Below, in pieces: positions 2,333 to 29,460 of a stretch of DNA of 37,390 nt. The notes under the pieces are model-generated. The model made no database searches, was not told the origin of the DNA, and worked only from the letters and a program-made list of their open reading frames with translations. The position numbers were made by a program, and so were the translations under genes. The first letter of the stretch is position 1. The number at the start of each line of letters is the position of its first letter. Source of the DNA: Fluviirhizobium alvei (GTDB taxonomy: Bacteria > Pseudomonadota > Alphaproteobacteria > Rhizobiales > Rhizobiaceae); the NCBI RefSeq assembly GCF_030551875.1, contig NZ_JAUOZU010000025.1, positions 1 to 37,390 of the forward strand. Direction: 5' to 3'.

Positions 2333-3148
2333 TCACCCCGAAATGATCAGCTCACGCGCATCGGTGCTCTTGTTGTTATTGACCGTGTAGCGCAGGCGCA
2401 CCTCCTGGATGTCGAAGGCCGAAAAGATCGTCCGGATCTCGGGAACATCGTTGATGGAGAGAATGAACCGCCCCTTGATCCGCCCGAGGCGCTCGGCGAT
2501 CGCAGCGAACTGATCGCGGTCGAAGATCTGCTTTCCGTAATCGTCCTCGCAGCCCCAATAGGGCGGGTCGAGGTAGAACAAGGTCTGCTCGCGGTCATAT
2601 CGGTCGATGAACGGCGCCCAGTCCAGGCACTCGATCGTCACGCCGGACAGGCGCTCGTGCACCTCTTCCAGCAAGGAGCCAAGGCGGGTGAGATTGAACC
2701 GGCTGCCGCGCTCCAGGGAGACGCCGAAGTTTTGGCCGACAGCCTTACCGCCGAATGCCAGACGCTGGAGATAGAGAAACCGTGCAGCCCGCTCCAGATC
2801 GGTTAACGTCTCCGGGTTTGCAGCCTTGAGCCGTTCGAACTCGCGCCGGCTTGCGATCTGAAACCTCAGCGTATCCATGAACTGAGGATAATGGCGCTGA
2901 AGGATGCGAAACAGGTTTGCGACATCACCAGAGCGATCGTTGATGACTTCGGTGCGAGGCGCTGCCCGGCGGCGAAAGAATATGCCACCCATCCCCACGA
3001 ATGGCTCGCAATAGATCGCGTGCGGCACCTGTTCGATCATGGCGGTGATGCGACCGGCCAGCGCGCGCTTGCCACCCAGCCAGGGTGCCGGCGGGCTCAC
3101 GGGATCGATTTCACGATGAGAAAGAGCAGGGGAAAGTTCAGAAGCCAT
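2333..3148 (-). CDS. Phage DNA adenine methyltransferase (D12/Dam class)
   Basis: 271 residues, about the normal length for the MethyltransfD12 family, which transfers a methyl group from SAM to N6 of adenine. Motif I is PWLGGKRAL near residue 22 with the EPFVGMGGIFF glycine-rich SAM site near 50; the catalytic motif IV is DPPYWG near residue 195. No cognate endonuclease is adjacent, so it is an orphan phage-type methylase. Likely roles are protecting phage DNA from host restriction or altering host methylation. It follows the tail fibre genes in the same direction, after a 138-base gap holding a small hairpin. Recognition sequence cannot be read from the protein. Confidence 0.9.
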   Translation of the reverse strand: MASELSPALSHREIDPVSPPAPWLGGKRALAGRITAMIEQVPHAIYCEPFVGMGGIFFRRRAAPRTEVINDRSGDVANLFRILQRHYPQFMDTLRFQIASRREFERLKAANPETLTDLERAARFLYLQRLAFGGKAVGQNFGVSLERGSRFNLTRLGSLLEEVHERLSGVTIECLDWAPFIDRYDREQTLFYLDPPYWGCEDDYGKQIFDRDQFAAIAERLGRIKGRFILSINDVPEIRTIFSAFDIQEVRLRYTVNNNKSTDARELIISG

Positions 3149-5676: not shown

Positions 5677-8600
5677 TCAGCCGCTCCATCTCGCATTCGG
5701 ATCGCGGCGCCAGGCCTCAATCATTTCGGGGAACGATGCCACCCAGGCGCGATCGCGCTCCTCAAGAGCGGCGCGCGTGCCCTCATTGGCCTGGCGCAGG
5801 ATCTCCTCGTTGGTGGTGCCGTAGATGTGGAGCGTGTGCGACGTCGATAGCGCCATGCGCATCTCGCCGCCGGATTGACGCACCGCGCGCGGTACCACGT
5901 TACGGACGCCGAGGCGTCCATCGGCGCCGCGCGCCAGCGGCATGATTGCCTCTTCGCCGGCCTCGCCCATCAGGCCTGTGCGACCGCGTGACATCGGAAA
6001 GAATGTCGGCCGATCGACGACACCGCCATTGGCGAAAGCAACGACGGAGCCCGAAGAGAAGGCAGCACCATCCGCAAAGAGGTTCGAAAAGATGCTGCTG
6101 AAGATCGACGAGATCGCCGAACCGATCCCGGAAACAGCGCCGCCGATGCCGGAGATCAGCCCGGAGAACAGGCCACCGGTCGAGTTGATTGTCGTTGCCG
6201 GCGCGGGTGTCTGAGCCGGCAGCGCCTGGCTCGTCTTGTTGATCGATGACAGCAACGATCCGGAGCCGTCCGTAAGAGCCTTGGACGCATCGACCGAGGA
6301 GGATGCCATTTTGTCGACATTGGCGGCGGCATTGGTGCTGGTGGTCGAAAGCTTGGCCAGCTGGCCGTTGAACTTGTCGACATATTGCCGGCCGGTCGTC
6401 CCCAGCACGTCAGCCGAGTTGGCACCCTGTGCCTGCGGTCGGCCGGTAAACCAGACCGAGGCCGCGTCCTGCGGGGTGCCGTATTTCGCCATCGATGCCG
6501 AAAACTGCTGGTTAAAGACAGCATCCTGTGCCGCCGGATTTGCCAGAAACTGGTCGGGCGTCATGCGCTGGCCGAGCGCCTGCTCGGTCCATGGGCCGAT
6601 ATTGTTGCCCATGACCTGATATTTGCCATAGGCGCGGTCGCCATTGGTCCAGGGACCGAGGGCGCCATAGTTGCCGCCGCTCTCGATCGCTGCGATCGCC
6701 TGCTGGTACATTGCCATGTTGCCGGTCGTCGCAGCGGCAATGTTGGTGTTGGCGGCATTGCCAAAGAGCGAGGTTGTGCCAAGTCCCGGCAGGCCGAGCG
6801 GCGAACCATTGATCATCACCGTGCCGGCGGTCACGGTCATGGCGGCCGTCGAGGTGGTCGAGAGCGGGCTTGCACTCTTGCCGGCGAATAGGTCGCCAAG
6901 CGTCGGCAGATTGGTGCCGAGCAGGTTGTTTTTAAGTGGATTGGCAAAGGCCAGCTGCTGGAATGTCGTCAGCAGCGTCGAGGTCACGGATTTGAGGCTG
7001 TCTTTCAGCGATCCGGTCCCGACCACCAGCGAGTCGATCGCGCTGGAGCCTGCATTCTGCACCGTCGACCAGGCGCCTTGCTGGCGCTCCAGTTCGAGCT
7101 TGAGGTTGGCCATCTGGGCCGCATTGGTGCGAAGCTGCTCGGCCTCTTTCGACATGGTCGCGAGGCCAAGTTCGCGGATCTTGATTTCGGCCTCATAGGC
7201 GGCAATGGCGCGCGCCCGCTCGTCGGCCGATTTGCCGACCAGCGAGATTTCGAGCTCGAGGCGGCCGATACTGTCGCTTTGGGTCTTGAGATAGTCCTGT
7301 TGCTTCTTGATCTCGCGCTCGAGCTCATCGGCCGCCCGCTTGCGCTCCTGCTCGAGCTTCTTGTTGAGCTCTTCGTTTGGGTCATAGTCGAGGCTGTTCG
7401 GGCGGCTTGCCGGCACGGCGGGCACGGTCAGTTGACCGTCCGAGTTGATGACGGTCGGGCTTTCGTTTTCGATCCGGAGGCGGGCGTCCCGGTAGACCCG
7501 TTCGATTTCGCGGACGCCGGCCTCGGTGCGACCGAGCGTCGAGCCGAGGAGGTCATTATAGATCTTGTCGAGATTGGCCTTGTCGTTGGCCGTGACCATG
7601 TTGCCGATGCCATCGGACATGGCCTTGAGCTGCGCGGCGTGATCACCACCGGCGACGCGGTTTTGAATGGTTTCGAGCTCGCGGTACTTGTTGGCCAGAT
7701 CAACGAGCTTATCGCCCAACAGGATGACCTGGTCGGCCTGGCGCTGGAAGCCGGATTGCTGGCCAAGTTTTTCCACCTCGGCCTGGAAGGCGGCGAGATC
7801 CGGTTTGATCCCCGTTGCGATCTGAGCCCGCAATTTGTTGATCGGGCCGGAGAAGGCCTCGAACCCGGAACCAACCTGCAGAGCGTCTTCTGCCATCGCC
7901 CGCAATTGCTCTGCGAACGCATGGACATCGCCGCTGGCGCCGGCCATCTTGAGCGACGTTGTAACCGCCTCATCGATCTTCGCATTGAAACCGTCGAGGT
8001 CGGCTGCGCCTGCGGCGGCTGTATCGAGCAGGTACCGGATCGAGTCGGCAAAGACCTTGTTTGTTTCTGCCGCCCTGGCCAGCGCACCGAGATCGCCGGT
8101 CGTGCCGTTCGTTGCGTCTGTGGCCCCTTCGGCAACAGCCGCAAACATTGCCGCATATTGCTCGCGCATTGCGGAACTCAGGCTCGTGAGGCTGTTGCGC
8201 AGCGAGGCGTCGGAAAAACTGTCGCTCGGCCCGAAATTAGCGCTCCTGGCCAACTCGCCATAGGTCGCCTTCAGCGCATCGAGCGTTGCCCGATGCTTGT
8301 CGAGCGCCGCTTCAAAATTGTCGACGCCTTCCTCGCCGGATGCGAACCACTGCGCTGCCGCCGTACCGAGTGCGATCGAGCCGATCGTCAGCAGGCTCAT
8401 AGGCGAGATCAGCGAGGTTAGCGCCGCGCCGATGCCCTTGATTGGCGAGTCCATCGACGCGAAGACCGCCGACAACTGGGTACCCTGCTGAAGCGCAATC
8501 TGGAGCGGCGACATCCCCATGGCGGCTGAGACGCCGATATCCTGAAACTGGGCGGCAATATTGGCCGTCTGAAACCCTTGTGCGCCGCTGACGGCTTGGC

Positions 8601-9024
8601 CAGGCATGGCGGCAACCGCAGCATTGCGACCACGGATCGCGGCGATCGACGCATTGGCTGCAGCCCGTTCGCGCTCCATCGCAGCTGTCATTTCCGAGGC
8701 CGAGATCGCTCCGATCTTGTGGGCATCACGGATCGCCGCGACCTCTGTGCGATAGCGCTGCACGGCAGCGAAGAGCGGATTGTACCTGGCGCGCAGCGCG
8801 TCCATCTGAGCGCCGTAGGCGGCGAGATCGTCGGCGCGCAGATTGCTGTTGGCGCCAATGTTCCGGACACCGGTTTCCGCCTCGATCATCGCCTGGATGG
8901 ATCGTGCCGTCTTCTGGGCGGTCTGGCCGACCTTGTCGATCGCGCGTTCGGCCTCGGCGCCGCCAGCCTTGGCGCCGCTGGCATCCGCGCCGATCAGGAT
9001 CGACAGTTTCATAGCCTGGGTCAT
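5677..9024 (-). CDS. Tail length tape measure protein with lysozyme-like domain
   Basis: 1115 residues. The N-terminus (ILIGADASGAKAGGAEAERAIDKV) and long Ala/Gln-rich helical stretches are typical of siphovirus tape measure proteins, which set tail length. Hydrophobic Gly/Ile/Val-rich segments lie near residues 155-225 and 955-1000. Residues about 530-650 are coiled-coil with repeated Glu/Arg/Lys. Residues about 770-890 contain AIESGGNYGALGP and AYGKYQVMG, the pattern of a transglycosylase/lysozyme-like fold with the catalytic Glu in AIESGG; such domains help the tail cross peptidoglycan. The start overlaps the upstream stop (ATGA); an ATG at 9012 is an alternative. The frame is intact, so the loss of head genes has not yet damaged it. 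Confidence 0.9.
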   Translation of the reverse strand: MTQAMKLSILIGADASGAKAGGAEAERAIDKVGQTAQKTARSIQAMIEAETGVRNIGANSNLRADDLAAYGAQMDALRARYNPLFAAVQRYRTEVAAIRDAHKIGAISASEMTAAMERERAAANASIAAIRGRNAAVAAMPGQAVSGAQGFQTANIAAQFQDIGVSAAMGMSPLQIALQQGTQLSAVFASMDSPIKGIGAALTSLISPMSLLTIGSIALGTAAAQWFASGEEGVDNFEAALDKHRATLDALKATYGELARSANFGPSDSFSDASLRNSLTSLSSAMREQYAAMFAAVAEGATDATNGTTGDLGALARAAETNKVFADSIRYLLDTAAAGAADLDGFNAKIDEAVTTSLKMAGASGDVHAFAEQLRAMAEDALQVGSGFEAFSGPINKLRAQIATGIKPDLAAFQAEVEKLGQQSGFQRQADQVILLGDKLVDLANKYRELETIQNRVAGGDHAAQLKAMSDGIGNMVTANDKANLDKIYNDLLGSTLGRTEAGVREIERVYRDARLRIENESPTVINSDGQLTVPAVPASRPNSLDYDPNEELNKKLEQERKRAADELEREIKKQQDYLKTQSDSIGRLELEISLVGKSADERARAIAAYEAEIKIRELGLATMSKEAEQLRTNAAQMANLKLELERQQGAWSTVQNAGSSAIDSLVVGTGSLKDSLKSVTSTLLTTFQQLAFANPLKNNLLGTNLPTLGDLFAGKSASPLSTTSTAAMTVTAGTVMINGSPLGLPGLGTTSLFGNAANTNIAAATTGNMAMYQQAIAAIESGGNYGALGPWTNGDRAYGKYQVMGNNIGPWTEQALGQRMTPDQFLANPAAQDAVFNQQFSASMAKYGTPQDAASVWFTGRPQAQGANSADVLGTTGRQYVDKFNGQLAKLSTTSTNAAANVDKMASSSVDASKALTDGSGSLLSSINKTSQALPAQTPAPATTINSTGGLFSGLISGIGGAVSGIGSAISSIFSSIFSNLFADGAAFSSGSVVAFANGGVVDRPTFFPMSRGRTGLMGEAGEEAIMPLARGADGRLGVRNVVPRAVRQSGGEMRMALSTSHTLHIYGTTNEEILRQANEGTRAALEERDRAWVASFPEMIEAWRRDPNARWSG

Positions 9025-12115: not shown

Positions 12116-13105
12116 ATGTATCTTTGCGGTGAAGGCATCGATGAAATATTGATCGAACTCTATCCGCTCCTTCTCGCGGGCGGGGTGGCTAACGTTGGCA
12201 GCCGCGGTGAAATGCGGGAAGAGCTAGGGGTAACGTTCCGTATGACGAAACCTAGGGCTCGGATCAGTCGATCACAAGATCGTGGCAAACCGTTTAGCGC
12301 CCTAGGGGAACTACTGTGGTATCTTGGAGGTCTCAATACGCTTGAGTTCATCAAGGAATACATCCCTGACTACGCAGAGGATGCTGAAGAAGGTATATTG
12401 GCTGGAGCCTATGGTCCACGGATCCATTCGATGCGCGGGAGCATCAACCAGCTTGAGAACGTCACCACGCTTCTAAAAGCCAATTCTACATCCAAGCGTG
12501 CAGTAATACAGCTCTATGACGCTGCGGACATAGCAGTTCATCACAAGGAGATTCCGTGTACAACTGCATTGCAATTCATTGCGCGGGACGGCCGTCTTCA
12601 CATGTCCACGACGATGCGGTCGAACGACGCGTACAAAGGCCTTCCGCATGACGTGTTCTGCTTCACCATGCTCCAGGAGATGATGGCAACTCGCCTTGGC
12701 CTCGATCTGGGTGAATACATTCACTTTGCCTCTAGCATGCATGTATATGACGGCTCGATCGAAGCGATGAAGCAGTATGTGCGCGAAGGACATCAGAAGA
12801 CAGTACAGATGCCCGAAATGCCCCCGGGCGACGCATTCTCCATTACCGACATCTTGTTGCGGGCTGAGGGGGAGATCAGAGCGGGAAAGAAAATCAGCGC
12901 GGCCGACTTCTCGAGCGAACACTATTGGGCTGACATAATTCGTCTTCTTCAGGTATTCTGGGCTACTAAAAGGCGGAATGCGCCGGGTTTTGAAGATCTC
13001 ACCGAGCTAAAAGCCGAATTCCAGGACGATGTTTATCGAGCCTATCTGGATAGACGATTGAAGACCCGAATCCTGCGAGACGCCAAAATAATTGGAGCAG
13101 TTTGA
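12116..13105 (+). CDS. Divergent thymidylate synthase-like enzyme, candidate deoxypyrimidine hydroxymethylase
   Basis: 329 residues, thymidylate synthase superfamily. Conserved features: ELLWYLGG with Glu65, phosphate-binding Arg128, nucleophile Cys148 in IPCTT, R168-S169-N170-D171, GLPHDVF, and H209-x-Y211. These enzymes use methylene-tetrahydrofolate to methylate or hydroxymethylate C5 of a pyrimidine deoxynucleotide. Two changes from ThyA stand out: the His after the Cys is Thr, and the Asn of PFNI that reads the uracil ring is Asp179 (PHDV). T4 dCMP hydroxymethylase has Asp there, so a cytosine nucleotide or hydroxymethyl product is possible (inference). GGGAGG precedes the ATG. The next gene starts one base after the stop, so this is a coupled operon and unlikely to be the host ThyA. 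Confidence 0.85.
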   Translation: MYLCGEGIDEILIELYPLLLAGGVANVGSRGEMREELGVTFRMTKPRARISRSQDRGKPFSALGELLWYLGGLNTLEFIKEYIPDYAEDAEEGILAGAYGPRIHSMRGSINQLENVTTLLKANSTSKRAVIQLYDAADIAVHHKEIPCTTALQFIARDGRLHMSTTMRSNDAYKGLPHDVFCFTMLQEMMATRLGLDLGEYIHFASSMHVYDGSIEAMKQYVREGHQKTVQMPEMPPGDAFSITDILLRAEGEIRAGKKISAADFSSEHYWADIIRLLQVFWATKRRNAPGFEDLTELKAEFQDDVYRAYLDRRLKTRILRDAKIIGAV

Positions 13106-13106
13106 C

Positions 13107-14024
13107 ATGTGGCCGACTAGGCAGCAACAACGTGAGCGAATTTCCAAAGCTCTTCATATCCATTCGGTCAACATCCGGCACCTTCCCGGTGTGGCGGAGA
13201 ACCTTGGGAGAGACACGCTCGCAATGCAATTCGTCGCAAGCCTGCGACGCGAAGATTATTACAGGTACGTCCAAGAAAAGGCCGTTTCGGCAAGAAAAGC
13301 AGATCCGAATTCAGGGACTTTCGACGCGGAGCGGGCAGTTGCATATCATATGCAGAACGGCAACGTCGAAGAGGCCGCATGGCTTCTATTTCTTATGACG
13401 CATTTCGCCCGGCCAGCGTCGTCCGGATGGCTCCGACTGCAACAGGTATACGGCCGCCTTGGGACGGGCGTTTGGGACTGGCAGACTGTATCAAATAATC
13501 CTCTGGCAATGATTTCTTGGCTCGCTGCGAATTGGATGAGCATCGGCGGGAAGTTCGGAAATCATCGGAAGTACGAAAGCCTGCGTCCGAATTCCAATAG
13601 GAGCTTCAGCGACGTTCTGCTCAGCTACCTAGGCTGGATAGGACCTGCCGGACACCAAGCATTTTTCGCGGCGAAAACACAGCAGGCGGGCAACAATCCC
13701 GCGACTATATTTGATGCTCTCTATAGGAGCATGAATGTGACAACCTTTGGGCGCCTTGCGAAGTTCGACTACCTGACACTGATCGGGCGGTATGGAATTG
13801 CTCCAGTCGAGCCGGGATCGGCCTATTTCAAGGGTGCAACGGGCCCTGCATCCGGAGCCCGGCTTCTGTTCACCGGGGCACGCACAAGTTCTGCAACGGA
13901 AACGCAGCTCCAGATCTGGGTGGACGAGCTCGATGCCAGTCTTCACGTAGGGATGGCCGTAATGGAGGATGCCTTATGCAATTGGCAAAAGAGCCCAACC
14001 GCTTTCGTCCATTTCAAAGGATAG
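13107..14024 (+). CDS. Alpha-glutamyl/putrescinyl thymine pyrophosphorylase clade 3-like protein
   Basis: 305 residues from the ATG one base after the TS-like stop; GGAG lies about nine bases upstream. I recognise the aGPT-PPlase clade 3 family from the C-terminal half: FGRLAKFDYLTLIGRYGI, then EPGSAYFKGATGPASGARLL, and MEDALCNWQKSP near the end. The family is related to helix-hairpin-helix DNA glycosylases and was predicted by comparative genomics to attach amino groups to pyrophosphorylated hydroxymethylpyrimidines in DNA, in phages and some bacterial loci. Pairing with a TS-like enzyme fits such a pathway. The expected DNA base kinase is not present in the window, so either it is elsewhere or the activity differs. 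No Zn ribbon or membrane segment is seen. Confidence 0.75.
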   Translation: MWPTRQQQRERISKALHIHSVNIRHLPGVAENLGRDTLAMQFVASLRREDYYRYVQEKAVSARKADPNSGTFDAERAVAYHMQNGNVEEAAWLLFLMTHFARPASSGWLRLQQVYGRLGTGVWDWQTVSNNPLAMISWLAANWMSIGGKFGNHRKYESLRPNSNRSFSDVLLSYLGWIGPAGHQAFFAAKTQQAGNNPATIFDALYRSMNVTTFGRLAKFDYLTLIGRYGIAPVEPGSAYFKGATGPASGARLLFTGARTSSATETQLQIWVDELDASLHVGMAVMEDALCNWQKSPTAFVHFKG

Positions 14025-14030
14025 TAGCCC

Positions 14031-15131
14031 TTAGACTGTAGCCGGATTGATCTGGCTCCAGTCCCATGTACGCTTTAGATAGTTCAGCTTGTTGGGTTCT
14101 ACCATTCCGCGATGCTGCATTTGGCCGACAGTCAGGCCTGGAGCCACTCCGATCGAGACACTGAACCGTACGATATCGTCACGTTCGGGTTTGATGCGTT
14201 GGAATTCTGACTCGCGAAGCGGAGGAATTACGCATTCCGCCGCAAACTCATTCGCTTCGCTTTCCCGATCGGCGTCACCAGGCAATGCATCGCCATCGAC
14301 GAAGGTGTTCGCTTTATGAAGCACCAGATGTCCGATTTCGTGGAAAACAGTAAACCAGAACTGGTCATCGCGCTTGTAGCGAAAGCTCAGCAAAAGCATT
14401 GCCTTGTCGGGATCAACCATGCGTATCGCTCCGCTTGCACGACAGCCATCCGGAGCCTTCACGACAACTAGAGCAACTCCAGCTTCTGCGCATAGTGTTT
14501 TTAGCTTCGGCAGGAACAACTGCGGATGGCGAATCATGGAAAGCTTGCGGATTTCTCGGAGTCGATCCAACAAATTTTCGGCGCTCCATACTCGCGTCTG
14601 GACCATATCGGCTTCGAGTTCACCACGCCGAAGCCAGAGAAGGGTCGCATCTTCTTTTGATGCGTAGGTCTTCGAGGTGCGATAATCCGTTTCTCCGACC
14701 AGACGTCCATAGCGGCCAGCCCAAGATTGTGCATCCGGGACGTTGAAGAAAACTAGTCTCCTACGCAGCTCAGCAGCGCGGCGTTCCAAAGACAGCTTTC
14801 CTCGCGCCTTCGGGCCAGGGGCAGGCAGGCGTAACAACAGCTCCTCTTGACCACTTTCTTGAACTTGAGAGACTGCACGATCGACCGCGATATCGAAATT
14901 CTCCTGCCGCTTCAGCCAGAATTTTGCTGTCGCGCCAAGCATCGCCGAAAGCGTCGACGCCGTGGGACCATCGATTTGCCGCGACCCGTCTATCAGGCCG
15001 CGAACGGCGTCAAGGCCATCCTCGAAGCTCTCAGCAAGATCATGCGCGGAAATGTTTCGTTGCTGCATAATTACACGGATCGAGTCGCCAGGTTTCGAAA
15101 ACCAATTGGCCGTAGCGTTCTCGTCAATCAT
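14031..15131 (-). CDS. HigA-like antitoxin fused to ImmA/IrrE metallopeptidase
   Basis: 366 residues. Residues 15-78 are an XRE/HigA-type helix-turn-helix ending in ATAKFWLKRQENFD, a segment typical of HigA antitoxins. Residues about 205-330 form an ImmA/IrrE peptidase with zinc motif HEIGH at 264-268 and a downstream Glu in ESEANEFAAECVIP. In ICEBs1, ImmA cleaves a repressor; in this fusion the protein probably represses its own operon and could be inactivated or activated by proteolysis. The start overlaps the toxin stop (ATGA), so toxin then antitoxin are translated together, the HigBA order. It converges with the aGPT gene, leaving six bases between stops. Confidence 0.85.
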   Translation of the reverse strand: MIDENATANWFSKPGDSIRVIMQQRNISAHDLAESFEDGLDAVRGLIDGSRQIDGPTASTLSAMLGATAKFWLKRQENFDIAVDRAVSQVQESGQEELLLRLPAPGPKARGKLSLERRAAELRRRLVFFNVPDAQSWAGRYGRLVGETDYRTSKTYASKEDATLLWLRRGELEADMVQTRVWSAENLLDRLREIRKLSMIRHPQLFLPKLKTLCAEAGVALVVVKAPDGCRASGAIRMVDPDKAMLLLSFRYKRDDQFWFTVFHEIGHLVLHKANTFVDGDALPGDADRESEANEFAAECVIPPLRESEFQRIKPERDDIVRFSVSIGVAPGLTVGQMQHRGMVEPNKLNYLKRTWDWSQINPATV

Positions 15132-15454
15132 GGTACTTCCGATATGGCTGTGAGCTTCACAAATTCAACACTGGCCCAGTCAATTCGTCCAGCGTCGGTC
15201 AGTGCGACGTTTTGGTCCACGTTCACGAACGTCGCCCTGTACCTTGAACCGATCGCTACTTCAAAGCTCTCATCGCTGTTAATGGTCACGTTTCCCCCAA
15301 GAAATTCATGCCACTCGTGAACATTTTCGAATGCCTCCGCGTTGGCGAGTTCGGTCACTAGGCGGTCAGCATACGTTCTTCCAAGCCGCTGCTCAGCTAT
15401 ATCCCGATTCAGGCAACAGTGCTTAAGGCCGGCCGTTCCATATGAAATCTGCAT
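15128..15454 (-). CDS. HigB/RelE-like toxin
   Basis: 108 residues from the ATG at 15454. The pattern GLKHCCLNRDIAEQRLG, a LVTELANAEAF helix and a C-terminal VAIGSRYRATF strand fits a divergent RelE/HigB-superfamily ribosome-dependent mRNase. The fold assignment rests on this and on the coupled HigA-ImmA gene downstream. The frame continues upstream to 15634 into the MazG-like gene, but that extension is low-complexity and overlaps a real gene, so the ATG at 15454 is chosen despite a weak ribosome site. It could also be a different small toxin; active-site residues cannot be assigned with confidence. Confidence 0.65.
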   Translation of the reverse strand: MQISYGTAGLKHCCLNRDIAEQRLGRTYADRLVTELANAEAFENVHEWHEFLGGNVTINSDESFEVAIGSRYRATFVNVDQNVALTDAGRIDWASVEFVKLTAISEVP

Positions 15455-15524: not shown

Positions 15525-15890
15525 TTATTGCGGCAGGGCTGATCCTTGGGCTTTGGCCGCTTGCTTCGCGCGGATGCGATCGATGTGTGCCCAGTTTCTA
15601 TCGAGCTCGTGCTCTCCCGCTTCGTCCATACCAACCCCTGAGGCGTTGCAAAGTGCCGCCAACGTCACCATCACTCCGCCAACCTCCTGGTGGATATCGC
15701 CTGGCGGTCTTCCGAACACATATTCCACAAGTTGGTGAGCTTCTTCCTTAGTACAGGCGTTCGCCTGCGCGAGTTCGAGTGATTCCTCAAGGAAGCGATG
15801 ATTACGCTCGCGCAAGTCAAGGTGCGCCGACTTCGGGAAACACGCGACAACCCACTGCCGCACACGGTATTGAAACGAGTTGGACTGCAT
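15525..15890 (-). CDS. MazG-like nucleoside triphosphate pyrophosphohydrolase
   Basis: 121 residues, the usual size of single-domain MazG-like proteins. The metal-binding motif EESLELAQA (E-E-x-x-E) near residue 33 and a second acidic helix (DIHQEVGGVMVTLAALC) near 73 fit the all-alpha NTP pyrophosphatase fold, though the usual Asp of the second motif appears to be Gly, which may alter activity. Such enzymes hydrolyse (d)NTPs to monophosphates and diphosphate. AGGAG precedes the ATG at 15890. It is the first gene of a minus-strand set followed by the toxin and antitoxin, and it lies 1.5 kb from the TS-like pair, so it could control a modified-nucleotide pool (inference). Confidence 0.75.
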   Translation of the reverse strand: MQSNSFQYRVRQWVVACFPKSAHLDLRERNHRFLEESLELAQANACTKEEAHQLVEYVFGRPPGDIHQEVGGVMVTLAALCNASGVGMDEAGEHELDRNWAHIDRIRAKQAAKAQGSALPQ

Positions 15891-16167
15891 CTCTACTCCT
15901 CGAACACGGTTATAGAAGACACTGAGTCTGAGATACATGCAAGTTCAAGGAGTGCAGCTAGGTCCTCTAGGCAATATAGGTTGTGCATAAGGTGTAGATT
16001 TGCCTTGCGACCGACCTGGTTCTCTTTCGACAGATAATGCATTCTGAATAGCCCCTAGATTTGCAGGCGCCTTTTCCCATAAATTTTGAGGCAGGAGAAC
16101 TACATCGGCAAAGTCAGTTTCACGGAAGAGGCAGGCTAAGGGCCATGTTCTCAAGCCTGAGGGACCC
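15891..16167. other. Intergenic region upstream of MazG-like gene
   Basis: 277 bases between the minus-strand MazG-like gene and the plus-strand membrane protein genes. It should hold divergent promoters. A 77-codon minus-strand frame (15945-16178) has no ribosome site and no protein-like composition, so no gene is called. Confidence 0.4.
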
Positions 16168-20313: not shown

Positions 20314-23300
20314 TTGCATTCGGGTGGGGCATTGTCGGCAAATTTTGGTCATCTGCAGCAGATTAGTCCCGAGCTGCATCGTCTCGGCACGCTGGCCGAA
20401 CGTTTCTTTTCCGAGGACGCCAACACCTCGCTGATGAAAAGCCGCCAGTTCGGCGAGTACATGGTCAAGGAGATCGCGGCCCTTTCCGGCGTCTATGATC
20501 CGGCTTCGCGGGAGGGAACCAATATCCTCGTGCGACGCCTCGCGACACAGCAAATCTTGCCGCGCGAGGTTGCCGAGATCTTTCATGCCGTGCGTAAGAG
20601 CGGCAACGATGCGGCCCATGAGTTTACGGGCTCGTCGGCCGAGGCGCTCGCTGCGCTGAAATTTTGTCGGTCTTTGGGCGTCTGGTATCGTAGGACATAT
20701 GGACGCGACCCAAACTTCAAGCCGGGTCCATTCGTGCCGCCTAGGGCGGCCGCTGTTTTGGATGAGGCGACGAAAGCCGAGCTGGAGGCGTTGAGATCGC
20801 GGGTTCGGGAAGCCGAAGAGCAACTGGCCGCCGCCCATGCTTCGGCCGAAGACCTGGCGAAAGCCCGCGCCGCTGCCGAAGAGCTTGCCCGACAGGCCTC
20901 GGCCGATAGCGCCGTTTGGGAACAGACGGCCGTTGAGATGGAGGCCAATCAGGCAGCCCTTGCCCGCAAACTGGCTGACCTGCAGAAAGCTGCCGTTTCG
21001 CAGCCGGAACAGGTACAAATCGAATTCAAATTGGCCGGCCTGCAGGCTGCGAGTCGTATGGAACTCGACGAGCGCCAAACGCGCCGGCTCATCGATGTCC
21101 AGCTTATTGACGCCGGATGGGAGGCAGACAGCGACAACCTGACCTATCAGAAGGGCGCACGACCGGAGGAAGGCCGCAGCCTCGCCATCGCAGAATGGCC
21201 CGCCGAGGGCGGCCGGGCGGATTACGCCCTCTTCGTCGGTCTCACCTGCGTAGCTGTCGTAGAGGCGAAGCGCGGAAGCGTCGATGTGCCGTCCACCCTG
21301 CAGCAAGCCGAGCGCTATGCGCGTACGATCACGCTGCCTGTGGACAGCCAACACCCAGGCGGCCCTTGGAAGCACGGTCTCGATGAGCCCTTCCGCGCCC
21401 CATTCGTCTTCGGCACCAATGGCCGGCCCTATGTGCGGCAATGGCTAACCAAGTCCGGCATCTGGTACCGCGATATCAGGCGCGACACCAACCACGCCAT
21501 TGCGATGACGAGCTGGTTTTCGCCGAAGGATCTTCTCGACAAGCTCTCGACTAATGTCGATGCGGCAGCGCAAGGTTTGGCCGAAGAGAGCTTCGGCAAG
21601 GGCCGGATGCGCCCCTATCAGGAAGAGGCGATTGCGGCGATCGAAAATGCCGTGGTCGCCGGCCAGCGCGACATCCTGGTGTCCATGGCGACCGGCACGG
21701 GAAAGACGCGCACGGCAATCGCGCTGATGTATCGCCTGCTCAAACACAAGCGCTTTCGCCGCATCCTCTTCCTCGTAGACCGCAAGGCGCTCGGCCGGCA
21801 GACCAGCGATGCACTGGAGACCACCGAGATCGAGGGCATGCTGAACTTTGCCCAGATCTACAAGGTCGCCGGGCTGGAGCAGAAGCTGCCGGAGGACGAA
21901 GATCAGGTGCAGGTCGCGACCGTCCAGTCACTGATCGCCCGCATCCTCAACGAGCCGGATCCGGCCAAGCGCCCCACACCCGGCGCCTTCGACTGCATCA
22001 TCGTCGACGAAGCCCATCGCGGCTACACGCTGGATGCCGAACTGCGCGAAAACGATATCGGCTTCCGCAACATCGATGACTATCAGTCGGCCTACCGCCA
22101 GATCCTGGATTACTTCGACGCCGTCAAGGTGGCGCTGACGGCGACCCCTGCCCTGCACACCCGCGAGATCTTTGGCCATCCGGTCTTCCATTATGGCTAT
22201 CGTCAGGCTGTCGTGGAAGGTTATCTCAACGATCATCTGCCGCCGAAGCGCATCACCACGGCTCTGTCGGAAGCCGGCATTCATTTCAAAGGCGGAGAGA
22301 CAGTTGAGATCATCGACCGTAGGACCGGTCAGATCGATTTATTCGATCTGCCGGATGATGTGCCGCGCGACTACGATGTCGGAGACTTCAACAAGAAGGT
22401 CTATTCGGAAACCTTCAACCGCATTGTGTGCCGCGCAGTCGCCACCGAGATCCCGCCGTCGAGACCGGGCAAGACGCTGATCTTCGCCGCCCGCGATGCC
22501 CATGCCGATGACATCGTGCGCTTGCTGGTCGAGGAGCTACAGGAGGAATACGGCGCAGACTCCGTGCCGCATGGCATGGTCATGAAGATCACCGGTGACA
22601 GGAGTGTCGATAACCCGGACGACCTGATCCTGAAGTTCAAGAACGACCCTTATCCGAAATATGTCGTCACCGTCGATCTGCTAACCACCGGCGTCGATGT
22701 GCCCTCCATCTGCAATCTCGTTTTTGTCCGCAGGGTCAAGAGCCGCATCCTCTATGACCAGATGATCGGCCGCGCCACGCGGCTGTGTCCAGAGATCGGC
22801 AAGGAGCATTTCCGCATCTTCGATGCCGTCGATCTGTACGCAGAGCTGCAGGAGATGAGCGACATGCGCCCGGTTGTCGTCAAGCCGGATATCGCGCTCG
22901 GCCAGCTCGTCACGGATCTGCAGAATGCGGAGACGGAAGAGGACAAGAGCTGGGTCGCGGCCCAGGTGATCGTGCGCATGCGCAGCCTCGTCAAGCGCAT
23001 GGGTGCTGAAACCCGAGAGAGTTTCGAGCGCCACACGGGCGAGAGCCCCGACATCGCCCTGCAGCGGCTCTCCACCCGCTCCGGCGCCGAGTTGCAGGAG
23101 TGGCTGGCCGCCCATCCCCGCGCCGTGGAGCTGCTCGAACGCCGCCCGCTCTTCACGGATAAAAACGATGGCGTCGTCATCTCCACCCATGAGGACGAGC
23201 TGCTGCGCATCGAGGAGATTTTTGGCAAGAACACCACGCCGGAGGATTACATCACCGGCTTCGAACGCTTCGTCCGCGAAAACATGAACCAGGTCCCGGC

Positions 23301-23745
23301 ACTGATCGCCGTCACCCAGCGCCCGCGCGACCTCACCCGCAAGGAACTCTCCGAGCTTGCCGGTCTGCTGGATGAGAAAAACTATTCCGAAGCCATGCTG
23401 CGCGCCGCTTACGGCCGCGCCCGCAATGCCGATATCGCCGCCCATATCATCGGCTTCGTCCGCCAGGCGGCGCTCGGCGATCCACTCATTCCCTATGCCG
23501 CCCGCGTCGACAACGCGATCTTGAAGATCGAAGCCTCCAGGGCCTGGACGCAGAAACAGAAAGAATGGCTACGCCGCATCGGTCGCGCCTTAAGGGACAA
23601 GCCGGTGGCCGATCCGACGCTGCTCGACCAGGGCGCTTTTACCGATAAAGGCGGCTTCAAGCGCATCTCGCAGGAGTTCGACGGCGAACTCGACGAGGTG
23701 CTGCATGCCTTCAACGAGGCGATCTGGGCGCCCGGCGCGGCATGA
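20314..23745 (+). CDS. hsdR: Type I restriction enzyme R subunit
   Basis: About 1140 residues. Order: a DUF4145-like helical N-terminus (residues 8-120), a coiled coil (150-240), the nuclease domain with DYALFVGLTCVAVVEAKRG (PD-ExK, EAK near 316), then an SF2 translocase with Walker A ATGTGKTRTA near 458, DEAH box VDEAHRG near 564 and motif VI IGRATRLCPE near 818, and a C-terminal helical part that docks on the methylase. It cuts unmodified DNA after ATP-driven translocation. No ATG is near; a TTG at about 20332 (SANFGHL start) preceded by GGTGGGG is as likely as the TTG near 20314. First gene of the defence operon; intact. Confidence 0.95.
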   Translation: MHSGGALSANFGHLQQISPELHRLGTLAERFFSEDANTSLMKSRQFGEYMVKEIAALSGVYDPASREGTNILVRRLATQQILPREVAEIFHAVRKSGNDAAHEFTGSSAEALAALKFCRSLGVWYRRTYGRDPNFKPGPFVPPRAAAVLDEATKAELEALRSRVREAEEQLAAAHASAEDLAKARAAAEELARQASADSAVWEQTAVEMEANQAALARKLADLQKAAVSQPEQVQIEFKLAGLQAASRMELDERQTRRLIDVQLIDAGWEADSDNLTYQKGARPEEGRSLAIAEWPAEGGRADYALFVGLTCVAVVEAKRGSVDVPSTLQQAERYARTITLPVDSQHPGGPWKHGLDEPFRAPFVFGTNGRPYVRQWLTKSGIWYRDIRRDTNHAIAMTSWFSPKDLLDKLSTNVDAAAQGLAEESFGKGRMRPYQEEAIAAIENAVVAGQRDILVSMATGTGKTRTAIALMYRLLKHKRFRRILFLVDRKALGRQTSDALETTEIEGMLNFAQIYKVAGLEQKLPEDEDQVQVATVQSLIARILNEPDPAKRPTPGAFDCIIVDEAHRGYTLDAELRENDIGFRNIDDYQSAYRQILDYFDAVKVALTATPALHTREIFGHPVFHYGYRQAVVEGYLNDHLPPKRITTALSEAGIHFKGGETVEIIDRRTGQIDLFDLPDDVPRDYDVGDFNKKVYSETFNRIVCRAVATEIPPSRPGKTLIFAARDAHADDIVRLLVEELQEEYGADSVPHGMVMKITGDRSVDNPDDLILKFKNDPYPKYVVTVDLLTTGVDVPSICNLVFVRRVKSRILYDQMIGRATRLCPEIGKEHFRIFDAVDLYAELQEMSDMRPVVVKPDIALGQLVTDLQNAETEEDKSWVAAQVIVRMRSLVKRMGAETRESFERHTGESPDIALQRLSTRSGAELQEWLAAHPRAVELLERRPLFTDKNDGVVISTHEDELLRIEEIFGKNTTPEDYITGFERFVRENMNQVPALIAVTQRPRDLTRKELSELAGLLDEKNYSEAMLRAAYGRARNADIAAHIIGFVRQAALGDPLIPYAARVDNAILKIEASRAWTQKQKEWLRRIGRALRDKPVADPTLLDQGAFTDKGGFKRISQEFDGELDEVLHAFNEAIWAPGAA

Positions 23746-23824
23746 AGACCTGAACTGGCGTTGACCATCCACCGCCGCTCGCTACAACCGCACACACGAT
23801 CCCGGATCAGATGAGAATCAGACT

Positions 23825-25360
23825 ATGAATGCCAATGCCATCGTCCAGAAACTCTGGCGCCTCTGCACGGTCCTTCGCAAGGACGGCATCACCTATCAGC
23901 AATATGTCACCGAGCTGACCTATCTGCTGTTCCTGAAGATGATGGCCGAGCGCAACCGCGAAACGGGGAGCCTGCCCAAGGGCATGCGCTGGACGGATCT
24001 GGTCGCGGCCAATGGTCTGGCTAAGCTGGAACATTACCGCAAGGTTCTCGTCACCCTCGGCGCCGCCAGCACAAGGCTGGGAGCAGACGACGCGCTTGTG
24101 CTTCCGCCAAGCGAAGCCGGCAGCCCGGAAGAGCGCAGGCGTTATGCCGACGCCCGTCCGTTGCCGGAAATGGTGCAAAAGATCTTCGACAACGCCTCCA
24201 CCTTCCTGCGCGAGCCGCAGAACCTGACCACGCTGGTCACCGCCATCGACGAGCTCGACTGGTTCTCCGAAGATCGCGACCAGTTCGGCGATCTCTATGA
24301 AGGCCTGCTGCAGAAGAACGCCGAGGAAACCAAGCGCGGCGCGGGGCAGTATTTCACCCCGCGCGTGCTGATCGAGCTTCTGGTCCGCCTCATGCAGCCG
24401 CAGCCCGGCGAAGTCATCCAGGATCCCGCCGCCGGCACCGGCGGCTTCCTGATTGCCGCCGATCGCTACATGAAGGCGCGCACCGACGACTATCTCGATC
24501 TCGGCGAGAAGGAACAGGACTTCCAGAAGCGCCGCGCCATCCACGGCATGGAAAACGTGCCGGGCACGCTGCGCCTGCTACTGATGAACCTCTATCTGCA
24601 CGATATCGACGGCGATCATGTCGATCTCGGCGACACGCTCTCCGACAAGGGCAAGGGGCTCGGCCGCGCCAACCTCATCCTCACCAACCCGCCCTTCGGC
24701 CCGGCAGGCGGCGCGCCGACCCGCGATGACCTCTCTGTCACCGCGTCGGTCTCCTCCTACCAGCTTCCCTTTGTCGAACACTGCATCCGTGCGCTGCAGC
24801 CCGGCGGCCGCGCGGCGATCGTCGTGCCCGACAACGTGCTGTTCGAAGACGGGCGTGGGCGTGAACTGCGCCGGATGATGATGGACTGGTGCGAGTTGCA
24901 CACCATCCTGCGCCTGCCCACCGGCATCTTCTACGCGCAAGGGGTCAAGACCAATGTCATCTTCCTGACGCGGGCCAAGACCGAGAGTGCCAACACCAAA
25001 TCCGTCTGGATCTATGACCTGCGCGCCCAGATGCCGAAATTCGGCAAGACGACGCCGCTGACGGAGGTCCATTTCGAAGGCTTCGAGAAAGCCTTTGGAA
25101 CAAGCCCGTACGGCAAGGAGCGCGGCCCGGATGAAGGCGAGGCCGGCCGCTGGCGCATGTTTAGCCGCGAGGCCATCGCCGCCCGTAGCGACAACCTCGA
25201 TATCGCCTGGCTGCGCGAGGCGGAGGAAGAGGCGGAAGAAGGCCTCATCGAACCCGACGACATCGCCGCCGCCATCCTCAGCCACCTGCAGGCTGCGACG
25301 CTGGAGATTGAGGCGCTGATGGCGGAGCTGGGCGACGAGTTGCCGGAGGCGGCGGAATGA
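23825..25360 (+). CDS. hsdM: Type I restriction-modification methyltransferase subunit
   Basis: 511 residues. An N-terminal helical HsdM domain (residues 1-140) precedes the N6-adenine methylase domain: GQYFTPRVLIELLV near 175, SAM motif DPAAGTGGFL near 200 and catalytic NPPFG near 288. Two copies with one HsdS form the methylase that marks the host sequence. It follows hsdR by 79 bases and its stop overlaps the hsdS start (ATGA), a coupling that keeps M and S in proportion. Codon use and GC match hsdR. All motifs intact. Confidence 0.96.
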   Translation: MNANAIVQKLWRLCTVLRKDGITYQQYVTELTYLLFLKMMAERNRETGSLPKGMRWTDLVAANGLAKLEHYRKVLVTLGAASTRLGADDALVLPPSEAGSPEERRRYADARPLPEMVQKIFDNASTFLREPQNLTTLVTAIDELDWFSEDRDQFGDLYEGLLQKNAEETKRGAGQYFTPRVLIELLVRLMQPQPGEVIQDPAAGTGGFLIAADRYMKARTDDYLDLGEKEQDFQKRRAIHGMENVPGTLRLLLMNLYLHDIDGDHVDLGDTLSDKGKGLGRANLILTNPPFGPAGGAPTRDDLSVTASVSSYQLPFVEHCIRALQPGGRAAIVVPDNVLFEDGRGRELRRMMMDWCELHTILRLPTGIFYAQGVKTNVIFLTRAKTESANTKSVWIYDLRAQMPKFGKTTPLTEVHFEGFEKAFGTSPYGKERGPDEGEAGRWRMFSREAIAARSDNLDIAWLREAEEEAEEGLIEPDDIAAAILSHLQAATLEIEALMAELGDELPEAAE

Positions 25361-26943
25361 CTGTGGAGCCCCGCTGGTCTGTCCCGAGAGGCTGGGACTG
25401 GACATCTATCGAAACCATCGCCGAGGTCACCGGAGGTGGAACGCCATCTGCCAATGATCCTTCTAACTTCTCGGACGAAGGTGGTATACCCTGGGTTACC
25501 CCCGCTGATCTCACGGGTTACGGAGACACTTACATAGCGCGCGGTCGACGGAATCTGTCTGATCGGGGCTATAAAAGCTCTTCGGCAAAGTTGCTTCCGG
25601 CTGGTGCAGTACTCTTCACGTCTCGCGCGCCGATTGGCTATTGCGCAATCGCTGCCAACCCGATTGCTACAAACCAAGGTTTTAAGAACCTCACGCTGTT
25701 CGGCGATATCTCTGGCGAATTCACGCGCCATTACTTGAAATGGTCAAAGCCATATCTTGAGTCTTTGGCTAGTGGAACAACCTTCCTTGAGCTCTCCGGT
25801 TCAAAGTTCCAGCAAGTGCCATTCCCCTTGCCACCCCTGGCCGAGCAAAAGCGCATAGTGGCCAAGCTGGATGCGCTGAACGCAAAATCCGCCCGCGCCC
25901 GCACCGAACTCGCCCGCATCGAAACCCTCGTCTCCCGCTACAAGCAGGCCGTGCTCAGCAAGGCGTTCAGCGGGGAGTTGACGCGGGAGTGGCGGCAAGA
26001 CCGAGAGTGGCCGGCACTCGTTCGATTAGGGGATATCGCAAGTTCTTTCGCATACGGATCCGCGGCGAAATCGCAGAAGTCAGGATCTATTCCCGTACTT
26101 AGGATGGGCAATATTCAAAACGGTCAGCTCGATTGGGCGGATCTGGTATACACGGACGACAAGGATGAGATTGAAAAGTATCGACTTTTCCCAGGCGACG
26201 TCCTTTTTAACAGAACCAATAGTCCAGCCTTGGTCGGCAAAACGGCTATGTATAACGGCGAGCGCGACGCTATCTTTGCGGGATATCTTATAAGGATCGT
26301 CGCTGGACCTGATCTGGACGCTCGCTACCTCACTTACGCTCTAAACAGTCCGTCCGGCCGTGAATTTTCGTGGAACGCCAAAACGGATGGCGTAAGTCAA
26401 TCAAACATCAGTGCGTCGAAGCTGAAGGAGTTCGCGTTCGCGGCTCCTCAACTCGAAGAACAACACGAAATCGTCCGCCGAATCGAATCCGCCTTCGCCA
26501 AGGTCGACCGGCTGGCGAAAAAAGCAAAGCGCGCCCTGGAGCTGGTGGGCCGGCTGGACGAGGCGATCCTGGCCAAAGCCTTCCGCGGCGAACTGGTTCC
26601 CCAAGACGAAAATGATGAACCCGCTGGCTTGCTGCTAGAGAGGATTAGGCAAGCGCGGAAGGGCGAGCTGTCCCGACCGAAGAGGCGGGCACCCGCAACG
26701 AAGACAAAGGTCCATGATATGGCACGCACGATTATCGAAGCCCTAGCGGAAGCGAAAGATTGGCTCGCAGCGCAAGAACTCTTTGCACGCTGCGGTGTAC
26801 GAGATGGATCCTCGACCGAAGATGTTGAAAAGCTCTACAGGCAGTTGTTGGATCTGGAGCGACAAGAAAAAGTTGAGATAGAAGAGATATCAGACCCCCT
26901 GACCGGAGCGAAGCAGGGTAATAGAGTCAGATTGCGAAGGTAG
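25357..26943 (+). CDS. hsdS: Type I restriction-modification specificity subunit
   Basis: 528 residues. Two target-recognition domains (about 1-150 and 215-365), each followed by a conserved helical repeat: LPPLAEQKRIVAKLDALNAK near 160 and QLEEQHEIVRRIESAFAKV near 365, then a second copy of the SKAFSGELT / AKAFRGELV motif. The two domains read the halves of a split recognition site; the site cannot be deduced here. The recognition domains are visibly less GC-rich than the spacers, the usual sign of domain swapping. About 80 extra C-terminal residues after the second helix (ARTIIEALAEAKDWLAAQEL onward) form an additional winged-helix-like tail. Confidence 0.93.
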   Translation: MTVEPRWSVPRGWDWTSIETIAEVTGGGTPSANDPSNFSDEGGIPWVTPADLTGYGDTYIARGRRNLSDRGYKSSSAKLLPAGAVLFTSRAPIGYCAIAANPIATNQGFKNLTLFGDISGEFTRHYLKWSKPYLESLASGTTFLELSGSKFQQVPFPLPPLAEQKRIVAKLDALNAKSARARTELARIETLVSRYKQAVLSKAFSGELTREWRQDREWPALVRLGDIASSFAYGSAAKSQKSGSIPVLRMGNIQNGQLDWADLVYTDDKDEIEKYRLFPGDVLFNRTNSPALVGKTAMYNGERDAIFAGYLIRIVAGPDLDARYLTYALNSPSGREFSWNAKTDGVSQSNISASKLKEFAFAAPQLEEQHEIVRRIESAFAKVDRLAKKAKRALELVGRLDEAILAKAFRGELVPQDENDEPAGLLLERIRQARKGELSRPKRRAPATKTKVHDMARTIIEALAEAKDWLAAQELFARCGVRDGSSTEDVEKLYRQLLDLERQEKVEIEEISDPLTGAKQGNRVRLRR

Positions 26944-26949
26944 ACTTTG

Positions 26950-28641: not shown

Positions 28642-29456
28642 TGCACTGGATCGATCAGGACAAGATTGAGCTTCCTGAGGGCTGGATAAATGAAGCCGCA
28701 GCAGCCAAGAAAAAGATGGAGGATGAAAAATTAAAACCTGACGATCTGTCCCAGGTGTGGACAGCTCTCAAAGGAGACCTAGGAAAGTTAACCAACAAAA
28801 GGTGTTGGATCTGCGAAGCGCCAGCGACGCGATCTGATAATGCAGTAGATCATTTTCGGCCGAAAAACCGGGTAGCCGAGGCTTTGCAAAGCCCTTCCGG
28901 ATACAAATGGCTGGCTTTTGAATACAAGAATTTTAGGTACATATGCACATTCTGCAACAGTAGGCGGATTGATATCATTGGTGGAACTGACGGTGGAAAG
29001 GCCGATCATTTCCCTTTGCGAGATGAAGCTGCTCGAGCCTACACCGAAACGGATGACATAGATAACGAAGAACCCATGCTTCTTGATCCCTGTGATCCTG
29101 AGGATTGGAAATTGCTCGGCTGCTCGCTGGAATCTGGTCATCCTGTTGCTGCGACTGACGATGTTCATGAACGGGAGCGGGTTGAAATATCAATTAAATT
29201 CTATCATCTCCACCAGGAAGATCTGAAAAAATTACGCCTCACGCAGATCCGAAATCTCGATCAGAAAATATCCGATGCTAAAGATCGGTATTATGAAATG
29301 GACGGCACGCCAAAGCGAAAGAAGAAGTTCATTTCTGCACTGGCACCTATAAAGAGATTGATTACTCCTGGCTCCGATTTCAGTGGCGAAATGTATAACC
29401 ACGTGAAAAGGTGCCGGGACAACGGGTATCCTTGGCTTGAAAAGCTTTTGGGTTAA
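28641..29456 (+). CDS. PtuB-like HNH endonuclease (Septu-like)
   Basis: 271 residues. CWICEAPATRSDNAVDHFRPKN carries the first Cys pair and the H-F-R-P-K motif; then WLAFEYKNF, ICTFCNSRR and HFPL follow. This is the TIGR02646/PtuB HNH pattern. In Septu the nuclease is bound and held by the ATPase until infection. The ATG overlaps the PtuA stop (TGATG), with GAGG about ten bases upstream. A Lys-rich C-terminal segment (GTPKRKKKFISAL) lies near 225. The gene is AT-richer than hsdRM, so the pair was probably inserted as a unit into the restriction operon. Confidence 0.85.
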   Translation: MHWIDQDKIELPEGWINEAAAAKKKMEDEKLKPDDLSQVWTALKGDLGKLTNKRCWICEAPATRSDNAVDHFRPKNRVAEALQSPSGYKWLAFEYKNFRYICTFCNSRRIDIIGGTDGGKADHFPLRDEAARAYTETDDIDNEEPMLLDPCDPEDWKLLGCSLESGHPVAATDDVHERERVEISIKFYHLHQEDLKKLRLTQIRNLDQKISDAKDRYYEMDGTPKRKKKFISALAPIKRLITPGSDFSGEMYNHVKRCRDNGYPWLEKLLG

Positions 29457-29460
29457 ACAC

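Follow-up and report, generated by a model that had tools for sequence, protein, structure and literature searches.

A Mobile Cassette Pairing a Predicted dCMP Hydroxymethylase and a Clade 3 aGPT-PPlase with a Convergent HigA-like Peptidase: a Possible Anti-phage System

Which base is acted upon by a thymidylate synthase (TS)-like gene that stands directly before a gene of the aGPT-PPlase family, and do the two genes act alone? This question is raised by positions 12116-14024 of a 37,390-nucleotide stretch of DNA from Fluviirhizobium alvei (NZ_JAUOZU010000025.1), the whole of which is referred to here as the window. A first-pass annotation, made from the sequence alone, had read this segment as a two-gene operon and a candidate system for nucleotide or DNA hypermodification. 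The two open reading frames (ORFs) were confirmed at 12116-13105 and 13107-14024, with one base between the stop codon of the first (gene 1) and the start codon of the second (gene 2), and the pair is indeed a conserved unit. As a description of the whole unit, the two-gene operon did not survive: conservation extends past the pair, on the minus strand, to about 15890, and the pair is one half of a four-gene cassette that is completed by a convergent HigB-like/HigA-peptidase pair. The four genes are as follows.

12116-13105, plus strand: TS-family gene, predicted deoxycytidine monophosphate (dCMP) hydroxymethylase (329 amino acids, ATG start; PF00303 at 5.9e-26; MilA at 2e-70; Cys148, Ser169 and Asp179)
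13107-14024, plus strand: aGPT-PPlase clade 3 gene (305 amino acids, ATG start; PF18746 at 1.2e-120; AlphaFold2 model with a predicted local distance difference test (pLDDT) score of 95.1; fold match in BFVD at 1.8e-4)
14031-15131, minus strand: HigA-like helix-turn-helix domain fused to an ImmA/IrrE (M78) peptidase, likely effector (366 amino acids; Peptidase_M78 at 4.6e-10; PD-Lambda-2_B at 8.6e-22; HigA at 4.5e-10)
15128-15454, minus strand: HigB-fold small protein, likely antitoxin of the peptidase (108 amino acids; AlphaFold2 pLDDT 95.5; Foldseek match to Proteus vulgaris HigB)

Here, the first two genes are termed arm 1 and the last two arm 2. Six bases separate the stop codons of gene 2 and the convergent peptidase gene, and the HigB-like gene lies upstream of the peptidase gene with a 4-base overlap.

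Linkage of the four genes and their spread

By tblastn, 8 of 72,556 plasmid records contain a relative of gene 2; a search of 50,697 phage records gave no match. Seven of the eight plasmid loci were opened, and each held the TS and aGPT genes together with a convergent peptidase gene, the aGPT gene being split in one. On a Leptospira plasmid (L007, 7974-8907), the aGPT gene is annotated in two pieces and looks broken, with TS, uracil-DNA glycosylase (UDG)-like, peptidase and HigB-like neighbors present. A search with an alignment of the aGPT proteins added 25 relatives from viral contigs and 200 from genome contigs; the top 80 of the latter were retained. The resulting 112 loci (7 plasmid, the best 80 of 200 genome and 25 viral) are not independent: gene 2 of the window is 100% identical to its counterpart on a predicted viral contig of IMG/VR (L091), and the two collections share some sequences. 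All four genes are near full length in 96 loci, and removal of rows more than 95% identical in aGPT left 83 non-redundant loci.

A TS gene was found upstream of the aGPT gene in all 110 loci with room for it, a convergent HigA-peptidase gene in 109 of 109, and a HigB-like gene in 102 of 105, the exceptions being L008, L009 and L114. These values come from a domain-based recount. A first count by gene geometry had given 96/107, 107/107 and 97/102 for the TS, peptidase and HigB-like genes, respectively, and its misses were mostly overlapping stop-to-stop frames, along with one 1.5-kb insert (L061) and the three loci without a HigB-like gene. Over the 83 non-redundant loci, the distance matrices of the four proteins correlate with r values of 0.76-0.90, the largest permuted value being 0.155 (999 permutations per pair).

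The choice of the best 80 relatives favors close kin; hence, a separate genome search was performed with the Pfam model alone. Draws of 385 class, 398 phylum, 397 order and 394 family genomes, partly overlapping and each including the own genome, yielded 17 loci outside the own genome (0, 3, 8 and 6, respectively), some of which may coincide with loci of the first set. The TS gene was present in 16 of these, the HigB-like gene in 15, the peptidase gene in 14 and all four genes in 14. In L148, a lone divergent aGPT-PPlase3 gene (1651-2559) has a changed C-terminal motif, and neither a TS gene nor a peptidase gene adjoins it.

Going by host names, at least eight phyla have the cassette. Among the hosts are Pseudomonadota, Planctomycetes, Acidobacteria and relatives, Chloroflexota, Gemmatimonadales and Bacteroidota (Larkinella), to which the plasmid loci add Spirochaetota and Actinomycetota, and the settings include plasmids, a phage-like plasmid and predicted viral contigs. 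Both genes of the pair are under purifying selection, with ratios of nonsynonymous to synonymous substitution (dN/dS) of 0.05-0.15 in six comparisons with L011, L012 and L013. Values of 0.04 to 0.15 were obtained for all five cassette genes of the window, an accessory fifth gene included, in 15 comparisons with the same loci. Silent sites were saturated in the comparison with L045, and no ratio was obtained.

In Escherichia coli, a relaxed DNA search with a Pantoea cassette gave partial matches in 229 of 5426 complete genomes. When an E. coli cassette was used as the query, 231 of the 5426 genomes matched, and 226 hold the cassette at a coverage of at least 80%, which makes it testable in laboratory E. 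coli; the 239 cassette places are all chromosomal. Four E. coli regions were opened, each of which contains the TS, aGPT-PPlase3 and convergent regulator-peptidase genes. The HigB-like gene is also present in the four regions yet unannotated (e.g. L116, 7164-7499, in E. coli 23CRST001), such that constructs following the annotation could lose the likely antitoxin. Neighboring genes in these regions encode a DEAD/DEAH helicase-family protein (4/4), type I restriction M and S subunits (2/4) and SIR2 (1/4). Two of the four regions (L117 and L119) also have, close to the cassette, a gene of the deoxyguanosinetriphosphate triphosphohydrolase family.

Predicted chemistry of arm 1

Gene 1 had been called a divergent TS-like gene, and the profile searches bear this out. 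The Pfam model Thymidylat_synt (PF00303) matches at 5.9e-26 (91.6 bits versus a cut-off of 24.3), and the protein falls under the cut-off in all eight listed NCBIfam thymidylate synthase models (best score 86.1 bits versus 327). The host ThyA is encoded on a separate contig (C42), and gene 1 is therefore an extra member of the TS family. When a profile of eight TS-like proteins was compared with solved structures, MilA was the best match (2e-70), and the top true thymidylate synthase followed at 9e-28.

According to the structure paper on MilA (PMC5175136), the base is chosen by Asp (cytosine) or Asn (uracil); the sugar is chosen chiefly by Ala, for ribose, or Ser, for deoxyribose, and a Lys or Arg acts as helper. 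At the corresponding positions, the window protein has Asp179, Ser169 and the helper Lys127, together with the catalytic Cys148. The Asp, the Ser and the catalytic Cys each occur in 99 of 99 relatives, a clean count made up of the 83 non-redundant loci and 16 Pfam-found relatives, in which the helper is Arg 81 times and Lys 18 times. Controls in one alignment gave Ser and Asp for T4 gp42, and Ser and Asn for both phage M6 and host ThyA. The Asn at the position of E. coli TS residue 177, the mark of deoxythymidine monophosphate synthases and of deoxyuridine monophosphate (dUMP) hydroxymethylases, was not found in the TS-like proteins. The Asp is shared by phage G gp319 and by a Lactobacillus phage ATCCB protein, both of which have glucosyltransferase genes in their vicinity, as would be expected of phages with hydroxymethylcytosine; a relative in phage Send513 has Asn. 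In a tree of TS proteins the branches are long, and the place of T4 gp42 was left unsettled. The position of Trp84 in host ThyA is occupied by Tyr in 99 of 99 relatives, which we take to fit hydroxymethylation rather than methylation.

The first-pass annotation had linked the pair to thymine chemistry. That proposal was set aside: all 99 relatives have Asp in place of the Asn of dUMP enzymes, the T4, M6 and ThyA controls behave as expected, and cytosine, not thymine, is therefore the predicted base. By these residues, gene 1 is best read as a predicted dCMP hydroxymethylase, with the Lys leaving room for cytidine monophosphate (CMP), and the pair probably acts on cytosine. The related expectation of a TS-type hydroxymethylase beside the aGPT-PPlase is supported by sequence, MilA being the closest solved relative.

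The assignment of gene 2 to aGPT-PPlase clade 3 stood. PF18746 (aGPT-Pplase3) matches at 1.2e-120 (402.6 bits versus a gathering threshold of 25; profile positions 3-279 of 279), and the profile search did not place the gene elsewhere; PF18724 (amino acid:DNA transferase) also matches, at 3.3e-71. PADLOC models gave no match for either gene of the pair. The AlphaFold2 model of gene 2, built from a 43-row alignment, is confident (pLDDT 95.1) and almost entirely helical. No solved relative of aGPT-PPlase3 was found by sequence (best E value of 0.68) or by Foldseek at an E value of 0.001. Among viral predicted structures (BFVD), four matched the model at E values of 0.001 or below (best 1.8e-4), and the one of the four with a name comes from phage LilMcDreamy and has an amino acid:DNA transferase domain. 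Another protein of this kind matched at 2e-3, and an endonuclease III and 5-hydroxymethyldeoxyuridine (5-hmdU) kinase helical-domain proteins matched weakly (E values of 0.4-0.6). As modeled, the kinship of gene 2 with the phage amino acid:DNA transferase family holds, and gene 2 may act on cytosine.

The convergent arm, accessory genes and genomic setting

The peptidase of arm 2 carries a Peptidase_M78 (ImmA/IrrE) domain (4.6e-10), and the family profile of its N-terminus matches solved HigA (4.5e-10). The HExxH motif is kept in 97 of 97 peptidase relatives, and the best PADLOC model is PD-Lambda-2_B (PDLC03982, 8.6e-22). The HigB-like protein of the window gave no match in Pfam, NCBIfam, PADLOC or PHROGs, and its best PDB profile match has an E value of 0.29. 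Sequence kinship to known families was accordingly discarded for this protein, in which the HigB resemblance is one of fold: its AlphaFold2 model (59-row alignment, pLDDT 95.5) matches Proteus vulgaris HigB with a Foldseek probability of 1.00 and TM-scores of 0.62/0.72. HigB toxins use histidines. In the HigB-like alignment, no histidine is conserved in 35 or more of the 59 rows. By analogy, the HigA-peptidase is the likely effector and the HigB-fold partner its likely antitoxin.

Two accessory genes recur. One is the fifth gene of the window cassette:

15525-15890, minus strand: accessory fifth gene of the closest clade, possibly MazG-like (121 amino acids; the ORF can start upstream at 15938)

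This gene lies upstream of the HigB-like gene in 29 of the 83 non-redundant loci. Its best PDB profile matches are to the MazG family and are weak (0.013 and 0.2), Pfam gave no match, and a gene annotated as MazG-like close to the E. coli cassette is not matched by it; the fifth gene may be MazG-like. The other accessory gene is inserted between the TS and aGPT genes in 24 loci (L007 to L106), or 18 of the 83, and encodes a family of about 268 amino acids with invariant GLNPS and NHN-Q motifs. Of 20 members, 2 are hit by TIGR04274 (best 8e-4), Pfam gave no UDG match, and a comparison of profiles with two of the three UDG matches of the host brought up no similarity. The faint likeness to UDG-superfamily glycosylases is weak and is kept as a hint. 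The fifth gene and the UDG-like insert never occur together in any of the 83 loci. Across the loci, no other neighbor cluster was found in more than 15.

The window has the defense-island setting that had been proposed for the pair. To the right of the cassette, an island at 20314-30387 encodes HsdR, HsdM and HsdS (type I restriction), the Septu pair PtuA (26947) and PtuB (28638) is present, and an Mrr-type restriction enzyme is encoded at 29437-30387. The left side is phage-like, with a tail tape measure protein gene at 5680-9024 (minus strand), and a D12-class adenine methyltransferase gene lies at 2336-3148 (minus strand).

A proposed mechanism, its rivals and known systems

The reading that we favor, and hold tentatively, is that two convergent operons form a mobile, probably anti-phage cassette, in which a modified-deoxycytidine arm would serve as sensor for a peptidase-toxin arm. 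In arm 1, the TS-like enzyme would hydroxymethylate dCMP, and aGPT-PPlase3 would convert or use 5-hydroxymethyl-deoxycytidine, either as the free nucleotide or in DNA. In arm 2, the HigA-peptidase fusion would be the toxic effector, restrained by an antitoxin of HigB fold in which no histidine is conserved. Arm 1 would stand in place of component C of PD-lambda-2, its cytosine product reporting a normal state of nucleotides or DNA. Phage infection, by breakdown of host DNA, destruction of dCTP and use of dCMP, would alter this product and free the peptidase, leading to abortive infection. The computation shows the presence and linkage of the four genes, the likeness to HigA and HigB, and the residues that select cytosine and deoxyribose; hydroxymethylation, the action of aGPT-PPlase3 and a role in defense are inferred. 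The sensor role is proposed because of the analogy with PD-lambda-2 C and is the weakest step.

Several observations weigh against this model. An operator shared by the two operons was found in 0 of 83 loci, the longest match never exceeding the best of 20 shuffles, in a test that is weak insofar as the tested region lies inside the operon in the 29 loci with a fifth gene and no shuffles were made for the comparison of the region before that gene. Sequence therefore lends no support to control of either arm by the other, and control of the pair by the HigA-like domain through such an operator was dropped as a candidate. The peptidase matches the HigA-type NCBIfam model TIGR02607 at 4.7e-7, below the cut-off of that model, and the HigB fold match has an E value of 5.1e-3, none reaching 0.001 in Foldseek. 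Lys127 is the ribose-type state found in MilA and blurs the distinction between dCMP and CMP, and the larger, redundant set of 112 rows has Asp in 111 and one Arg at position 179. Among the Pfam-found loci, L133 is a lone divergent aGPT gene with a changed C-terminal motif and no adjoining TS gene, near a contig end; L146 has the TS and aGPT genes amid housekeeping genes without the toxin arm; and L141 has a truncated aGPT gene and no peptidase gene. Arm 1 can therefore persist without arm 2. In addition, Acinetobacter phage SH-Ab15599 is reported, in the text available, to have two aGPT-PPlase clade 3 proteins (PMC8878043), and the family is therefore not confined to the cassette.

By analogy, we favor an arrangement in which arm 1 senses and arm 2 acts, and arm 1 as weapon would be nearly as likely. 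In the latter account, which as a whole we consider somewhat unlikely, a modified deoxycytidine nucleotide would poison phage DNA synthesis, or would enter phage DNA and be excised, with HigB/HigA-peptidase acting as the switch. Such a role would suit the closer linkage of the TS and aGPT genes (16 of 17 Pfam-found loci) than of the peptidase gene (14 of 17), and a possible MazG-type pyrophosphohydrolase (29/83) or UDG-type glycosylase (18/83) would fit the control or excision of odd nucleotides. A UDG-superfamily glycosylase that removes glucosylated hydroxymethylcytosine from phage DNA is described as a known defense in the available text of PMC11078745. However, this account likewise finds no shared operator in the weak test of the 83 loci, no nucleotide kinase is conserved among the cassette neighbors, and the MazG-like and UDG-like assignments are weak.

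Lower in probability, and in our view unlikely, is a reading that follows the first-pass annotation: the pair would modify host or element DNA against restriction or as a self mark. In this reading, the toxin arm, which that annotation did not include, would punish loss of the mark. The family name and the phage relatives are those of DNA hypermodification enzymes, loci lie in the mobile settings named above, and clade 3 proteins are reported from a phage (PMC8878043, as available). Nevertheless, the predicted base is cytosine rather than thymine, no mark-reading nuclease recurs across the loci, and the 5-hmdU DNA kinase (model PF18723) was not found in the host genome, in a search in which 0 of 14 control genomes gave a match either. 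An addiction module of the plasmid or island, in which loss of the element kills by freeing a peptidase restrained by the HigB-like partner and the arm 1 product, with defense secondary or absent, would suit the toxin-antitoxin-like architecture and the mobile settings but is very improbable, given the defense genes nearby in the window and in E. coli, the abortive defense reported for PD-lambda-2, the nearest tested relative (PMC9519451, in part), and a costly two-enzyme arm that addiction does not need.

Beyond the favored arrangement, a wider claim is possible, and it is advanced with more reserve than the model itself: that this is a widespread immune system making its own hypermodified deoxycytidine, by a dCMP hydroxymethylase and an aGPT-PPlase acting on cytosine, coupled to a peptidase toxin as trigger or weapon. 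If true, this would add a new chemistry to the aGPT family and a new way of triggering toxin-antitoxin defense. For the clade 3 aGPT-PPlase, the analysis supplies recurrent partner genes, a substrate open to test (cytosine, not thymine) and a tie to a toxin arm whose relatives in PD-lambda-2 bring about abortive infection.

Part of this ground is already in print. The aGPT-PPlase is a predicted defense domain in the literature: the text of the DefensePredictor study lists aGPT-Pplase among predicted, unvalidated defense domains, and one validated system in that text includes a thymidylate synthase, with no tie drawn there to aGPT-Pplase (PMC13092281). The partners of the aGPT-Pplase candidate are absent from that text, and its Fig. 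6F may or may not show the cassette. Neither the four-gene cassette nor the cytosine assignment was found in the open-access literature as available, a scope outside which Iyer 2013 and Burroughs 2015 fall. The clade 3 proteins reported for SH-Ab15599 (PMC8878043) differ from those described here in their phage setting, and they were missed by tblastn of the 50,697 phage records.

Among tested systems, PD-lambda-2 resembles arm 2 in having a HigB-like small protein and a HigA-peptidase fusion in the same order; according to the available text, its component B is toxic alone, A rescues, and C is needed for defense, not for neutralization (PMC9519451). The peptidase matches component B (PDLC03982, 8.6e-22), the HigB-like protein resembles component A by fold only (HigB probability of 1.00, E value of 5.1e-3), and PADLOC gave no component C match among the TS-like, aGPT, HigB-like and fifth genes of the window. 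Component C is related to a P4 phage antitoxin. The cassette has a convergent pair of predicted nucleotide-modifying genes.

For arm 1, the thymidine hypermodification of phages M6, ViI and phiW-14 offers a likeness in its TS-family hydroxymethylase and its amine-transferring enzymes of aGPT/amino acid:DNA transferase type (PMC6449724, in the text available). By contrast, the M6 enzyme has Asn (uracil) and a 5-hmdU DNA kinase takes part in the pathway, whereas the cassette has Asp and no kinase; an aGPT profile run against 30,001 bases of phage M6 gave nothing significant (best E value of 0.09). T4 gp42, a dCMP hydroxymethylase, agrees with gene 1 at both substrate-selecting positions (Ser and Asp) but is very distant in sequence, and the T4 dCTPase and glucosyltransferases were not seen in the cassette. 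The closest solved relative, the CMP 5-hydroxymethylase MilA, shares the TS scaffold, an enlarged C-terminal region and the Asp for cytosine; it differs in serving antibiotic synthesis and in having Ala (ribose) at the sugar-selecting position, where gene 1, as the T4 enzyme, has Ser (PMC5175136, as available).

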